Source: a virus
Virus record (IMG/VR): IMGVR_UViG_3300039412_000084
Location: 1-21,436 of that record
Reading direction: 5' to 3' (one strand)
DNA: 21,436 nucleotides
Shown here: in pieces, positions 432-14,247 of the stretch
Layout: the number at the start of each line of letters is the position of its first letter
How positions within the stretch are numbered: position 1 is the first letter of the stretch
Translations under genes and position numbers: made by a program
Notes under the pieces: generated by a model
The model's database searches: none
Seen by the model: only the letters and a program-made list of their open reading frames with translations
What the model was told of the DNA's origin: nothing

Positions 432-1253
432 TTATATTCCTATTCTTTTTAATAATTTTCCCATAGAACTAGGATTTACTCCGTATTTAAATGCTAGTTT
501 TCTTTTATTCATTGTATTAGATACATATAAAGATTTAATAGTTTCATATTCACTTAATGGAATTTTATTTTTATGATACCGACCTTCTTGTATCGCCTTT
601 TGAACTCCATTACTTATATTATTTCTCTCCTCTTTTGTAAAAATCTTTTTATTTTTTAATTTTCCTAAACTTACACTTTTACATCTTTCTATAGACCACT
701 TTTGTTTTTTTGATGCGTCGGAAATTTTCTCTTTTGTTTCATTTGTATGTGTTCTTAACTTAAATTTTTCTATTGTTTCTTGAGAATGCTTTATTCCTTT
801 TCTATTAATAGACATTTGTTTTTTCTGTTCATCTGTCCACTTAGGTTTTCCTTTTTGTGTTAATGATATTTTTCTTTTAACCTCATTGCTTCTAGGAATT
901 CCTCTCATAGAAACATCTGCTGATGGACTTAAATTGTAACAATATTCCTTGCCAACGTGAACATTCAATTCTTTTTGTTCTTCTGTTATTAATATATCTT
1001 TTTCACAATTTTTAAAAATTACAAATTCAAAGTTATTTTCTCCATGTTTATTCCACGCCCTTTGGAGATAAAGATTATCATGAATATTTCTATTTAATTG
1101 ACTTTTATGATTATAGAATCTATCTCTTATGTTAACAGAAGACCCAATATAGAACTTTCCATTAACTTTGTTCACTATTTTGTATAAACCTGAAATATTG
1201 TCCATACTAATAAGTATATAATTATATAAGTTTTTCGATATTTTATTTGCCAT
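432..1253 (-). CDS. Free-standing GIY-YIG homing endonuclease with NUMOD3-like repeats
   Basis: This is a site-specific DNA endonuclease of the mobile GIY-YIG class. The catalytic domain starts about 17 residues into this reading, with GLYKIVN and, a few residues on, FYIGSS, the two strands that name the family. R and N residues (IRDRFYNHK) and a Glu in the HGENNFEF region follow, as expected. After it come several NUMOD3-like DNA-binding repeats (RSNEVKRKISLTQKGKPKW, KGIKHSQETIEKF) and a C-terminal helix-turn-helix-like segment (MNKRKLAFKYGVNPSSMGKL). The ATG at 1253 is chosen. A GTG at 1283 would add 10 residues, and an ATG at 1205 would begin right at the domain (MDNISGLYKI); none has a strong ribosome binding site. 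The gene lies between two virion genes that are not visibly interrupted, so it is intergenic rather than intron-borne. Confidence 0.88.
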   Translation of the reverse strand: MANKISKNLYNYILISMDNISGLYKIVNKVNGKFYIGSSVNIRDRFYNHKSQLNRNIHDNLYLQRAWNKHGENNFEFVIFKNCEKDILITEEQKELNVHVGKEYCYNLSPSADVSMRGIPRSNEVKRKISLTQKGKPKWTDEQKKQMSINRKGIKHSQETIEKFKLRTHTNETKEKISDASKKQKWSIERCKSVSLGKLKNKKIFTKEERNNISNGVQKAIQEGRYHKNKIPLSEYETIKSLYVSNTMNKRKLAFKYGVNPSSMGKLLKRIGI

Positions 1254-1301
1254 ATCATAATGAATATGAAAAATGAACAACACCTACAAGATTTTAATAA
1301 A

Positions 1302-7487: not shown

Positions 7488-8324
7488 TCAAATAGATAGT
7501 ATATTTTGATTGGTTTTTATGTCATATAACTTGTTATTTTCTTCATCGAACCGAACAAACATATTTGGTTTAATAATTTCTAATAATCTCCGTTGTCTCA
7601 CAAGGTCTTTTTGTTTTTTATTAAGTTTATTATGATGTGGTTCATCATATTCAAATATGATGTTTCTTTCTTTATCATAACCATCCACCAAATATCCATA
7701 TAATTCAATTTCTCCGCCGTTTTCTGCGTGTTGGAGATTCCAACCTTTTTCTTTGTTAAGTTTATCAATAAATTCACAGGCTCGTGGATTGTGGTTTATA
7801 GACTTTCCTATTATTCCCTTTTTAAATAAATCGTTTACTGTGGCAAGTCTATTTTTGTATTTAGTTTCTTCTGTTCTCTTCTTCCCTGTGTTTGATTTTG
7901 AAAGATTTAATTTATGATTATCTGAAAATTTTCGTCCTTTAAAAGATTTAGACATTTTTTCTCTCGTCTCTTTGGTGATTGGATAGTTTATTTTTCTTTT
8001 TATCCACGCATTAGACATTTTCTTTTTTGCTTCTTCCGTGAGTTTCTTACCCACATTAGAACTTGATATTTTTTGTTTGGAAATTTCCGTGTGCTTTTTT
8101 CCTAATCTTCCGTTAGGCATACCTTTTTTAGAACACGACTTACATCTGGAATTAATTTTATTTGCTCTCCACCATAAATCATAGGATGAGTATGATAGTT
8201 CTGTGTTACACTTAGGACAGTTTCTTTTCCATTCTTTCTTTGTAGTATCTATTGAGATTTCTTCGTTTGATTCTATCCTTGTGTCTTTGATAGTATCTAC
8301 GCATTCTAAGTTTGGATTGTTCAT
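7488..8324 (-). CDS. Mobile endonuclease: zinc ribbon, NUMOD3-like, Vsr/EDxHD-like nuclease (copy C)
   Basis: This is a probable homing endonuclease of 278 residues from ATG 8324. After about 32 residues without recognisable features comes a zinc ribbon (KRNCPKCNTELSY, then CKSCSKK). NUMOD3-like repeats follow (GKKHTEISKQKISSSNVGKK, FKGRKFSDNHKLNLSKSNTG). The C-terminal nuclease carries NPRACEFID, NLQHAENGGE, VDGYDKERNIIFEYDEPHH and KDLVRQRR, the D, E-x-D, H and D-x-x-R residues of the Vsr-like/EDxHD group. It belongs to the same subgroup as the genes at 11346 and 19272 (NP-AC and QHA-NGGE motifs). The acidic first 32 residues overlap a basic open frame at 8212-8364 and may be partly a by-product of that overlap. 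A GAAGAG sequence upstream could serve the ATG. Confidence 0.75.
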   Translation of the reverse strand: MNNPNLECVDTIKDTRIESNEEISIDTTKKEWKRNCPKCNTELSYSSYDLWWRANKINSRCKSCSKKGMPNGRLGKKHTEISKQKISSSNVGKKLTEEAKKKMSNAWIKRKINYPITKETREKMSKSFKGRKFSDNHKLNLSKSNTGKKRTEETKYKNRLATVNDLFKKGIIGKSINHNPRACEFIDKLNKEKGWNLQHAENGGEIELYGYLVDGYDKERNIIFEYDEPHHNKLNKKQKDLVRQRRLLEIIKPNMFVRFDEENNKLYDIKTNQNILSI

Positions 8325-8364
8325 TTATCTCTTCTTTCGTTCTATTTAATTTTCTTCTTCCCAT
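8212..8364 (-). CDS. Small Arg/Lys-rich protein (50 aa), out of frame over the start of the endonuclease gene
   Basis: An open frame from ATG 8364 to TAA 8214-8212 encodes 50 residues, beginning MGRRKLNRTKEEINEQSKLR and continuing with RRYYQRHKDRI and NRYYKER. It is strongly basic, and the RYYxxHKDRIK pattern resembles short helical segments seen beside or inside phage mobile endonucleases. It overlaps the first 113 bases of the gene starting at 8324, which is in the +1 frame relative to it. The protein-like, organised composition here contrasts with the featureless acidic reading of the other frame, so I think this frame is or was the coding one. It could be a stand-alone DNA-binding accessory protein, or the original N-terminal domain of the endonuclease separated by a one-base frameshift near 8226-8238. 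Confidence 0.5.
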   Translation of the reverse strand: MGRRKLNRTKEEINEQSKLRMRRYYQRHKDRIKRRNLNRYYKERMEKKLS

Positions 8365-8414
8365 ATATTAATAAATATAACGTAAGAATATAAAACGTAA
8401 GAAAATATTAACAA
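8365..8414 (-). promoter_or_regulatory. Only notable intergenic gap; AT-rich with a 10-base direct repeat
   Basis: This is the only gap of more than about 30 bases in the window. It holds two copies of AACGTAAGAA on the plus strand (8379-8388 and 8394-8403; TTCTTACGTT when read in the gene direction), starting 15 bases apart in otherwise pure A/T sequence. It lies directly ahead of the small basic frame and its endonuclease gene, so it may hold their promoter or operator. No consensus promoter can be assigned. Confidence 0.25.
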
Positions 8415-8849
8415 TTATTTTTCTTTTAACCATTCCGGTTTAAATTTGTCAACATTATCAACGGTTGAATGGTCTTCTGGATTCCAGTGTGGAACTCTTT
8501 TAAATCCACTTCCTGTAAAAATCAATACCGGAACTTTGTCAATTCCTAATTTTTTGGCAACGGTTGCCCTATGTCTCCCTTCGTGTCCTACAATTTTACG
8601 TTTTTCCATATCAACGGATAATACTAAAAAATCTAATGGTAGATTATTTTTCATTCTATGTTCTATGTTTGCCGATGATTCTGGTCTTGTATCCCAGTCG
8701 GGAATTGGATGAACTAATTTTAAAAATTGGTCAGGAGACATCCATATCAATTTGCCTTTCCAACCTTCCATTCCTTCGTATGAATGGAGGTCTTTTTTAC
8801 CGGCCAATGGATATTCAATCTCTTTAATTAATGACTTTAATTTAATCAT
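8415..8849 (-). CDS. ParB/sulfiredoxin-fold-like small phage protein (144 aa)
   Basis: This small protein begins with a leader, MIKLKSLIKEIE, nearly the same as that of the gene at 10932-11330. Downstream, about residues 35-112, it resembles the ParB N-terminal/sulfiredoxin-like fold: a WMSPDQFLKLVHPIPD segment, a region that could supply the first helix, then IVGHEGRHRATVAKKLG followed by VPVLIF. The GHEGRHRA stretch corresponds to the GxxRxxA nucleotide-binding motif of that fold. No DNA-binding C-terminal domain follows, so a partitioning role is unlikely. Nucleotide or phosphate handling, or a nuclease-like activity, is possible. It ends in a Lys/Asp-rich tail. It lies between the fibre-like gene and a mobile endonuclease gene, with six bases separating it from the former. 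No ribosome binding site is visible at ATG 8849. Confidence 0.65.
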   Translation of the reverse strand: MIKLKSLIKEIEYPLAGKKDLHSYEGMEGWKGKLIWMSPDQFLKLVHPIPDWDTRPESSANIEHRMKNNLPLDFLVLSVDMEKRKIVGHEGRHRATVAKKLGIDKVPVLIFTGSGFKRVPHWNPEDHSTVDNVDKFKPEWLKEK

Positions 8850-10931: not shown

Positions 10932-11330
10932 TTATGTTAAACTTCCCCACTTTGGAAGATTTTGTGGTTGTTGATGTTCTGGAACTTTTGGGTCAACTTC
11001 TTTTGCGTGAATTTTCCATTCTTGTCCCCAGGCTCTAATATTTTCAATATTATCACGAACCCGTTCTAACGCACACTCACTTCCACCAATAATATTGTCA
11101 TCTAAAAAATATTCTACCTCCCAAAGAATGTCGTGTAATTTTTCAATATCATTTATATCGTTTAATTTTTTATAACCACGCATGATATTTGCCAGTTTTT
11201 TAGCCTCTCCCTGTATAGCATTAATTAATGAACAAGTATTTGCGGGCTGTTTGCGAATACCATATAAATCTTCCGATGCCTCATCAATTTCGGTTTCAAT
11301 ATTCTCTATTAATGATTTTAATTTAATCAT
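10932..11330 (-). CDS. Small helical phage protein with MIKLKSLI leader (132 aa)
   Basis: Family not recognised. The protein starts MIKLKSLIENIETEIDEASE, sharing its first residues, and about 30 of the first 36 bases, with the gene at 8415-8849. The remainder looks almost entirely helical, with NTCSLINAIQGEAKKL, a central DINDIEKLHDILWEVEYFLD segment, and ECALERVRDNIENIRAWGQEW, then a Pro/Gln-rich tail. The acidic leader contains I-D-E followed by A (residues 15-18), which matches the T4 prohead-protease consensus (L/I-x-E then A/G/S); this is suggestive only. It lies between a mobile endonuclease gene and the fibre-like gene. No membrane segment or catalytic motif is seen. The ATG at 11330 lacks a clear ribosome binding site. 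Confidence 0.65.
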   Translation of the reverse strand: MIKLKSLIENIETEIDEASEDLYGIRKQPANTCSLINAIQGEAKKLANIMRGYKKLNDINDIEKLHDILWEVEYFLDDNIIGGSECALERVRDNIENIRAWGQEWKIHAKEVDPKVPEHQQPQNLPKWGSLT

Positions 11331-12258: not shown

Positions 12259-14247
12259 TTATAAAACGTTGCCTACGATATCACTGTTTGGATATTTACA
12301 TTCAAAAATAGCGGGGTCCAAACTGTTGAATACCATGTCGTTCTGTGTTGCCGCCTGTATATCATATTCTACAGGAGAATAATTTCCACCATTGGTTGTC
12401 AATGGAGTATTGTTGATTATATCCAAAGATACAACCGTTTGAACTCCATCAACTTTGGCAATTTCCAATTTTAAAGCACTAAGATTAATTGCTTGAGAAA
12501 ATTCCCATTTATCTATGGCAAAAAAGTTTTGAACTGCGGTAATACAATTTGACAATACATCCTTTTTATTGTAACCCTTGAATGCTGTTATAACAAATTC
12601 CACGCCGATGTTGATGATGTATCCGTCAATTACATTGATACCATCAGTAAGCATTCTATAACGTCTCAAATATGTCAATAGATTTGTTACCAATGCTTCG
12701 TTGGCTTGTGTCAAATTTCCATTTTCATCAAATGACAACATATACAAATTGACAGAGAACGGATTACTTCTGTCGAAAGCAATCTTTCTAAAATAGTTTT
12801 GGGTATTGGCATTGTCAACCGTGGCTACATTGTTGGTATCAACTGTTCCTGTTAGGATTTGGTTTTGATTGACATCCAAACTGTTATAGGTAATAATCTG
12901 AGCTTTGGCGATAGAACCGTATTTTGCTGGTAAAGCATAAACTCTTGCCAAATAATCATCTTGGGTGACTATACGATTCTGAGCGGCAAATGCTGCAATA
13001 GCATTCTGACGAATCATATCATTACTCTCCGGCCCTGCGCCTCCAACGGTTGCCACAGAGTTATTTACCTTCAAAGAGGTCTTTACAGTGTTTAACAACG
13101 CCGATTGTTCCGGCGTCAATCCATCAAGAGTATTGTTAATCGTTGAAGAATCAATGTTAATTATAGAATTTGATGGTGAATTAGACTCAAAACCACCACC
13201 AACCGTGTAAGTTACAGTCAAAGTCGTATTCGATGGAGCCAATCCATACGTATCATTCTTTAAGAAATTAGATGGGTCTAAGGACAGATTTAAGTTGTTG
13301 AGGTTGGACAAACCAACACCAACTTGTTGTGAACTCAAATTAATGATTTCATCAGCAAATCCATCTGTTCCAGCTCCAAATTCCAAAAACGTTCTATTAT
13401 TTTCATCAACATTGACTGTAAAACGTCTTGATGTTTTGAGATAATCCAAAATGTAAGGGACGGTTCCTTGATATAATGAAAGAATTCCTTGATTTGAATC
13501 GGTGTTAGGAATATCTGTTAGAACCATTTCTTGTGACAAGAAATCAACTTGGTGCCAAACGTTATTGTCGGCATCGGTTACATTAATAATTTCCAATACA
13601 TTGTCCTCGTCAAGATACAAATCCAAATAAGATTGCATATCTCCAACTGTAAATGTCTTGGTCACAAGTCTTCCGGCTCTGATATTGACGTTCTTTTGAA
13701 GTAAGAAAAATGTAGGAACTCCGGTAGAATCTCTTTGATATACAGAAGATGTCAGTGGTGACAAAGCTGTATTTACAGAAAAATCCAACGATGTAGAAGT
13801 CAAGAAAGAAGACCCAACGTTATTGGATACCTGCATATTTTCTTGAAGACTTAAAGCATAGTTGTTATCAGGAACATAATTTCCATTGCTATCTGTTGTA
13901 GAAGGACAAATTTGATAAACGTCGATGGTTCCTGTGGCTCCTTTGGCTGGAGACGTTGTATAACCCAAATATTTAGCCAAAGCAATGATGTTCTTTCTTT
14001 CCGTTGTATTGTAAAGAAGACCTTCTTTGAAAGTGTAGTCGGTGTAGTATGATAGAACGTCACCAACATATGAAGCCATATCAATGAACATCATGCCTGG
14101 AGCGGCATCATTGAAATCTGCGTAGGTGTTTGGATAGTAATATTTGGCGAAATTGATTAAATTCTCACGAAAAGATGAAAAATCTTTGTTAAGATATCTT
14201 ACGTCCTTACTTCCTGGCTGAAATGATTTATTAGTAGTATTTGCCAT
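12259..14247 (-). CDS. 6: Baseplate wedge protein, gp6-like
   Basis: This is a T4 gp6-type wedge subunit of the Baseplate_J group, which in T4 dimerises to form the inner ring joining neighbouring wedges. The 662-residue length is close to T4 gp6 (660). The N-terminus has the typical YLNKDFSSFRENLINFAKYY segment, then DFNDAAPGMMFIDMASYVGD, TDYTFKEGLLYNTTERKNII and LAKYLGYTTSPAKGATG. The middle has YTVGGGFESNSPSNSI followed by GGAGPESNDMIRQNAIAAFA, QNRIVTQDDYLARVYALP and YGSIAKAQI, the J-like core. A C-terminal wedge-contact domain follows. The gene is uninterrupted. It follows a small zinc-ribbon gene by eight A/T bases with no ribosome binding site. In related phages gp25 and gp6 are commonly adjacent; here a mobile pair separates them. 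Confidence 0.93.
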   Translation of the reverse strand: MANTTNKSFQPGSKDVRYLNKDFSSFRENLINFAKYYYPNTYADFNDAAPGMMFIDMASYVGDVLSYYTDYTFKEGLLYNTTERKNIIALAKYLGYTTSPAKGATGTIDVYQICPSTTDSNGNYVPDNNYALSLQENMQVSNNVGSSFLTSTSLDFSVNTALSPLTSSVYQRDSTGVPTFFLLQKNVNIRAGRLVTKTFTVGDMQSYLDLYLDEDNVLEIINVTDADNNVWHQVDFLSQEMVLTDIPNTDSNQGILSLYQGTVPYILDYLKTSRRFTVNVDENNRTFLEFGAGTDGFADEIINLSSQQVGVGLSNLNNLNLSLDPSNFLKNDTYGLAPSNTTLTVTYTVGGGFESNSPSNSIINIDSSTINNTLDGLTPEQSALLNTVKTSLKVNNSVATVGGAGPESNDMIRQNAIAAFAAQNRIVTQDDYLARVYALPAKYGSIAKAQIITYNSLDVNQNQILTGTVDTNNVATVDNANTQNYFRKIAFDRSNPFSVNLYMLSFDENGNLTQANEALVTNLLTYLRRYRMLTDGINVIDGYIINIGVEFVITAFKGYNKKDVLSNCITAVQNFFAIDKWEFSQAINLSALKLEIAKVDGVQTVVSLDIINNTPLTTNGGNYSPVEYDIQAATQNDMVFNSLDPAIFECKYPNSDIVGNVL

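Follow-up and report, generated by a model that had tools for sequence, protein, structure and literature searches.

The virus record analysed here, a 21.4-kb IMG/VR entry (21,436 nucleotides; hereafter the window), carries a 50-codon frame over the start of a homing-endonuclease-type gene, and this hidden frame is, on comparative sequence evidence, a real gene. Its product is probably a cassette-encoded, sequence-specific DNA-binding autoregulator, which would read tandem boxes upstream of its own start and most likely represses its own expression. The initial annotation had noticed a basic frame at this place and had offered three readings of it: an ancestral fusion now split, a programmed +1 shift, or a true overlapping accessory gene. 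The last of these gained strong support; a programmed shift is disfavoured, and an ancestral fusion was not borne out. The frame is present at 8212-8364 on the minus strand and overlaps the endonuclease open reading frame at 7488-8324 on the same strand, the latter lying in the +1 frame; as had also been pointed out, a one-base step near the end of the peptide joins it to the WKRNCPKC motif of the endonuclease. The features of the locus are as follows.

8395-8402, minus strand: candidate operator box 1, TCTTACGT, an exact direct repeat of box 2 (15 bp start to start) that fits the S17/M21 peptide class.
8380-8387, minus strand: candidate operator box 2, TCTTACGT, the partner of box 1 in the repeat and fitting the same class, directly upstream of the promoter-like core.
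8371-8379, minus strand: promoter-like core TATATTTAT, ending 6 nt before the peptide ATG; the same element stands before most cassettes.
8212-8364, minus strand: gene of the 50-aa peptide, MGRRKLNRTKEEINEQSKLRMRRYYQRHKDRIKRRNLNRYYKERMEKKLS, supported by family homologues, a structural model and the residue-box association; a basic arm (residues 1-9) is followed by one long predicted helix (10-49), with proposed specificity residues 17 and 21 and near-invariant R20, R23, Y24, Y25 and Y40.
8212-8324, minus strand: dual-coding stretch, containing the C-terminal three quarters of the peptide and the N-terminus of the endonuclease, with family-wide selection on both frames.
7488-8324, minus strand: homing-endonuclease-type gene of 278 aa, read in the +1 frame from an ATG of its own at 8324 (NUMOD3, 8.6e-11; PHROG homing endonuclease, 4e-9; alignment A5).
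8133-8219, minus strand: zinc ribbon of the endonuclease (C36, C39, C61 and C64; cysteines conserved in alignment A5, weak Pfam zinc-ribbon matches); read in the other frame, KRNCPK of this ribbon gives the peptide tail EKKLS.
7491-7793, minus strand: putative C-terminal nuclease domain (residues 178-278), PD-(D/E)XK restriction-endonuclease-like in the AF2 model.

The peptide has at least 167 non-redundant relatives, nearly all of them from viral contigs and nearly all stand-alone open reading frames of 45-60 aa. An initial search returned one near-identical contig and a contig of a different phage (L002), which contains three peptides, each positioned over the start of a different endonuclease (HNH type, zinc-ribbon type and GIY-YIG type). 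A DNA pattern derived from M1-G2-R3, R20 and R23-Y24-Y25 recovered at least 120 stretches of viral contigs; the pattern matches combined with an HMM pass yielded at least 118 non-redundant cassettes, and two more patterns added 49 further ones that are mostly more divergent. We define the MGRK peptide family by M1, G2, R3, R20, R23, Y24-Y25 and Y40 in a stand-alone open reading frame of 45-60 aa that precedes a homing endonuclease, and the window peptide carries every one of these features. Ahead of TATATTTAT and the first ATG, its cassette also has a pair of 8-bp direct repeats spaced 15 bp, an arrangement that is typical of the family rather than universal. The presence of relatives in unrelated viral contigs, at the same position relative to homing endonucleases, rules out a chance open reading frame. 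Tail motifs such as NLQDNKQS and EKKLS were considered as peptide features and discarded, as they arise when the codons for GIYKIVN and KNCPK, at the start of the nuclease domain, are read in the other frame.

Searches of the peptide against Pfam and PHROGs gave no significant match, and a comparison with PDB sequences gave none up to an E value of 1. Among named phages, tblastn found no convincing relative, although the BLAST low-complexity filter may hide some; in one such run Mycobacterium phages appeared at E values of 2 or worse, which are chance matches. We call the peptides an apparently undescribed protein family, one that would carry out a known kind of regulation. The dual-frame cassette has probably gone undescribed because gene finders normally drop one of the two frames. 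A search of genome collections returned a single contig from a metagenome-assembled genome (MAG), JAPLWP010000089.1 (L141; 4626 bp), which is assigned to a Candidatus Magasanikbacteria MAG and carries a peptide-endonuclease cassette; it is possibly a phage contig binned with that MAG. A second, more divergent peptide branch with K20 and a KYxTEEE start (L156, L153, L146, L162, L145, L219, L191, L200 and L241) was also observed; several of its members have near-exact repeats 14 bp apart that end in ACTT, not ACG, and a clear repeat was not found in the remaining members of this branch.

Downstream of the peptides lie endonuclease genes of several kinds. Pfam searches of 104 of them identified GIY-YIG domains in 55 and NUMOD3 in 49, with rarer types comprising a few HNH genes, one LAGLIDADG match, and DUF723/treble-clef and zinc-ribbon genes. 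In the window, the overlapped gene has the NUMOD3 domain of a free-standing homing endonuclease. Its predicted structure begins just before the zinc ribbon, after 27 disordered residues (pLDDT <50), in keeping with the earlier suggestion that the acidic N-terminus is a shadow frame, and this N-terminus contains no conserved domain. D214, E225, D227 and H231 are conserved in alignment A5. By VIA-align the modelled fold is of middling similarity to known nucleases (Z 7-8 overall; 7.2 to I-Bth0305I and 7.1 to Vsr), and Foldseek alone returned no match with an E value below 0.001. As modelled, the endonuclease itself is ordinary, consisting of a zinc ribbon, NUMOD3 and a restriction-endonuclease-like C-terminal domain.

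The window seems to derive from the baseplate/tail region of a T4-like phage. The protein encoded by a 662-aa neighbour (12259-14247) is 42% identical to a protein of Microcystis phage Mel-JY01 and 34% identical to a baseplate wedge protein of Flavobacterium phage vB_FspM_immuto. The window also contains, scattered among its other genes, one GIY-YIG gene and several additional zinc-ribbon/NUMOD3 endonuclease genes. The GIY-YIG homing endonuclease gene (432-1283, minus strand) has no MGRK peptide; TATACTTATTAGT stands directly before an ATG at 1205, which is residue 27 of the listed open reading frame, and because of this position the gene probably starts at 1205 and not at the GTG at 1283. Two further minus-strand genes of the window (8415-8849 and 10932-11330) share the N-terminus MIKLKSLI and are otherwise dissimilar, and small open reading frames with a comparable start occur in related loci (e.g. 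L106:3186).

The initial annotation had proposed searching for homologues, stand-alone or fused, and examining both frames for coding selection. The relatives, as described above, are conserved and nearly all stand-alone. In the 118 cassettes the endonuclease frame is +1 relative to the peptide in 106, +2 in four (three of which have ATGA-type overlaps), fused in two, and not within reach in six. To evaluate selection on the overlapped frame, expected stop codons were obtained by resampling synonymous codons with each locus's own usage. Beneath peptide codons 1-42 there are 50 stops in the +1 frame, as compared to 213 expected (sd 9.4), and after thinning to at most 70% nucleotide identity (n=56) codons 11-42 still cover only 19, as compared to 87 (sd 6.1). 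The deficit is slight in the +2 frame. The peptide frame is itself the most conserved: its column entropy is 1.65 bits, versus 2.32 and 2.36 for the other frames, and its least conserved columns are third codon positions. Of the 106 cassettes with a +1 relation, 56 have an endonuclease start upstream of the peptide; in 37 the start falls within the peptide gene at +28 to +43, in 12 it falls within it further on, and in one it follows the peptide. As judged from these codon statistics, both frames are constrained and each has its own ATG, an arrangement of overlapping genes with two starts.

To compare the upstream regions, cassettes were aligned on the first ATG of the pair, be it that of the peptide or that of the endonuclease. 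In 72 of the 93 alignable cassettes the core [A/C]TA[T/C]TTAT (or one of a few variants) ends 4-7 nt before this ATG. The same core is located 4-7 nt before ordinary phage genes in 54 non-cassette cases (open reading frames of at least 100 aa; e.g. L021:677, L122:870 and L132:2457), which rules out TATATTTAT as a cassette-only element and makes it probably a general phage promoter element. We infer its promoter role from position only; should transcription begin at the expected site, the late mRNAs of these phages may be near-leaderless. At L070:1734-1907 (plus strand) a different small open reading frame of 57 aa has the same ACTATTTATTAGT core and a T-rich repeat upstream, and lies directly before a DUF723-type endonuclease. 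It resembles a ribbon-helix-helix protein by eye only, Pfam giving no support, and is perhaps another type of regulator in the same slot.

Immediately upstream of the core, cassettes typically contain a pair of 8-bp boxes, separated by TTTTAT and in most cases 15 bp apart. The pair in the window, at 8380-8402, is identical at eight of eight positions; these boxes, the main point of the present analysis, lie outside the coordinates covered by the initial annotation. Direct repeats matching at six or more of eight positions occur in 54% of cassettes as compared to 9% of shuffled controls, so that with this core definition only about half of the cassettes have a clear repeat, and the spacing is 15 in 47 of 60. 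Seven non-cassette promoters also reached six of eight, but four of these are really cassettes (with the IWEEK/WDEK shadow reading) that had been omitted as duplicates. At box positions 2-4 the two copies agree with frequencies of.73,.86 and.89, versus.34,.51 and.36 for permuted pairing, values that are somewhat inflated because the repeat finder maximised within-locus identity, an effect that the shuffle control addresses.

The sequence of the boxes varies between cassettes, and within a cassette both copies co-vary. Peptides with Q17/A21 are paired with TGACG boxes (TATGACGT is the box sequence of this class), S17/S21 with TCACG, K17/D21 with CGTCG or AGTCG, N17 with TAACG or TAATG, and R17/Q21 with CTACG; the S17/M21 class, to which the window belongs, has CTTACG in all three of its cassettes (the window, L002 and L113). 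Mutual information with box positions 3-5 is concentrated in residue 17 (mean z 9.7) and residue 21 (mean z 8.5), with all others at or below 3.3. These two residues still rank highest when the peptides are thinned to 70% and to 65% identity (10 of 10 random subsets), and the signal is lost at 60% or less, where 12-16 sequences are left. Partial Mantel correlations are likewise highest for residues 17 and 21 (r of.387 and.325, respectively;.178 for the next residue). For peptide pairs that are 55-65% identical elsewhere, box identity is.73 when both residues are alike and.41 when both are different; for pairs 65-75% identical elsewhere the corresponding values are.82 and.40. Common descent by itself would not pick out two residues spaced four apart. 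Nor is the association built in, as the box finder picked the best direct repeat without using the peptide.

The nuclease type does not account for the box sequence. Cassettes with the same residue pair and a different endonuclease class have a box identity of.816 (n=102), as compared to.394 (n=1000) when both residues and the endonuclease class are different. The association also holds in L028 and L062, where the endonuclease frame starts downstream of codons 17 and 21, and in the fusions L024 and L037. By these comparisons the box sequence follows peptide residues 17 and 21, not the endonuclease class. Residue 20 may contribute as well, as R or K at this site is associated with G or T after the box AC (40:13 vs 1:9; Fisher p=1.6e-4, uncorrected for relatedness). 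Residues 17, 20, 21 and 24 lie on one face of the uninterrupted helix predicted for residues 10-49 (model pLDDT 89). In a held-out prediction on a newly fetched divergent branch the match was.48 versus.37 +/-.08, with only 7 usable cassettes.

These patterns strongly suggest that the peptide binds DNA, and we propose the following mechanism. Before its homing endonuclease, each cassette would carry a small dedicated transcription regulator in an overlapping frame, whose helix residues 17, 20 and 21 would read the variable bases of two tandem direct repeats immediately upstream of the phage promoter-like element TATATTTAT, with the basic arm probably placed on flanking T/A-rich DNA. Bound to its own repeats beside the putative promoter, the peptide would most likely keep the transcription of both its own gene and the endonuclease gene in check (autorepression). 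Homing endonucleases with several unrelated nuclease folds would share this travelling module, in which the match between peptide and operator would be specific to each cassette. Promoter activity, repression and the arm placement are presumed from the sequence layout, and the direction of regulation, repression, is a guess. Repression is likelier than activation because box 2 directly adjoins the promoter-like core, and a protein bound there would obstruct polymerase more readily.

An unlikely alternative has the peptide acting at the same boxes as an activator of the cassette promoter, or first as activator and then as repressor, which would delay the endonuclease until the peptide has accumulated. 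The layout resembles that of controller proteins of restriction-modification systems, in that a -10-like element is preceded by two sites in tandem and the nuclease gene is preceded directly by a regulator gene that overlaps it, and both these proteins and phage middle-promoter activators would be models for it. The use of a box-less core by other phage genes can be taken in favor of activation, but it also means that the core seems to work elsewhere without boxes. It is more doubtful still that the peptide is a DNA-targeting subunit or domain of the nuclease, with boxes that are copies of, or similar to, the homing site. The in-frame fusions would fit such a role, as would I-TevI, whose homing site and operator are both bound by a single DNA-binding domain (PMC2988022). 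However, the boxes keep a fixed distance from the promoter-like element and the first ATG at many different genomic places, as expected of parts of the cassette and not of the target, and the endonucleases have NUMOD3 or zinc-ribbon modules of their own.

The remaining readings concern translation. That programmed +1 frameshifting fuses the peptide to the endonuclease is very improbable, even though the +1 relation is nearly constant (106 of 118) and two natural fusions exist. In a gene expressed in this way the downstream frame would lack its own start and would not need to be open upstream of the shift; here the tabulated +1 endonucleases have their own ATG and a frame selected to be open beneath the peptide, far upstream of any shift site, so that a frameshift is not needed and was rejected as the reason for the overlap. 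In addition, the endonuclease starts upstream of the peptide in 56 of the 106, and in four cassettes it is in the +2 frame. The idea of an ancestral fusion now split is not borne out by this set, in which in-frame fusions number only two of 118: L024, a 351-aa protein of treble-clef/DUF723 type, and L037, a 114-aa protein with a zinc ribbon and a remnant. Finally, the peptide could be a mere leader of irrelevant amino acid sequence that tunes endonuclease translation by coupling, which the ATGA overlaps and internal starts do suggest for some cassettes. We give this reading hardly any credence, as it conflicts with the strong amino acid conservation, the residue-to-box association, and the position of the endonuclease start, which comes first in half the cassettes.

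With autorepression as the preferred reading, we consider it reasonably likely that the peptides form a large family, hitherto undescribed, of sequence-specific DNA-binding proteins that use a single helix, have a recognition code readable from residues 17 and 21, with 20 in addition, and are encoded over the start of homing endonuclease genes of many unrelated kinds. Every mobile cassette would then own a repressor and a matching operator, possibly conferring immunity specific to that cassette, or repression of one copy by another within the same phage. Should binding be confirmed, these proteins of ~50 residues would constitute a natural DNA-binding family of widely varying specificity, legible from two or three positions, for which dozens of protein-site pairs have already been matched. 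The family would also illustrate how one plug-in control module serves selfish homing endonucleases whose folds are unrelated, and its more than 100 instances would make a clear case of long dual-coding overlap in phages.

The known systems closest in concept each resemble part of this arrangement. Controller (C) proteins are small DNA-binding regulators encoded upstream of a nuclease gene that act, as helix-turn-helix dimers, at sites in a common promoter. Those of type II restriction-modification systems (PMC3874152, PMC6237814) share with the cassette the small upstream regulator and the sites at a common promoter, whereas the AF2 model of the peptide is an arm and one helix (pLDDT 89), not a helix-turn-helix, and the peptide is dual-coded with the start of the nuclease. 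The likely binding geometry, with one helix in the major groove and contacts at i, i+3, i+4 and i+7, is that of bZIP basic regions. The peptide nevertheless has no Pfam bZIP match and no leucine zipper by eye, and it is encoded by prokaryotic viruses next to direct repeats, whereas bZIP sites are palindromic. RptR, a repressor of type I restriction-modification islands (PMC12255303), is also small and acts on short direct repeats at the -10 region, two of which are needed for full repression; it differs in its fold, its palindromic 6-bp site and its location in a host defence island, as opposed to a selfish phage cassette. Moraphages, according to the available excerpts of PMC12619734, pair CcdA/HicB-like antitoxin genes with Pac-I-like homing endonucleases, and these modules similarly unite a small putative transcription regulator with a homing endonuclease in aquatic phages; the protein families are different, and those excerpts mention neither an operator/specificity relation nor an overlapping-frame arrangement. 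A further parallel may be drawn with I-TevI of phage T4, for which transcriptional autorepression has been described (Edgell et al. 2004, reviewed in PMC2988022). In both cases the promoter of a homing endonuclease would be controlled by a product of the cassette at an operator that overlaps or adjoins a late promoter. In I-TevI the nuclease is itself the repressor and the operator resembles the homing site, whereas in the cassettes described here the boxes are associated with the peptide and not with the nuclease class, and a separate overlapping gene of another family appears to act, with tandem repeats and interchangeable nucleases.
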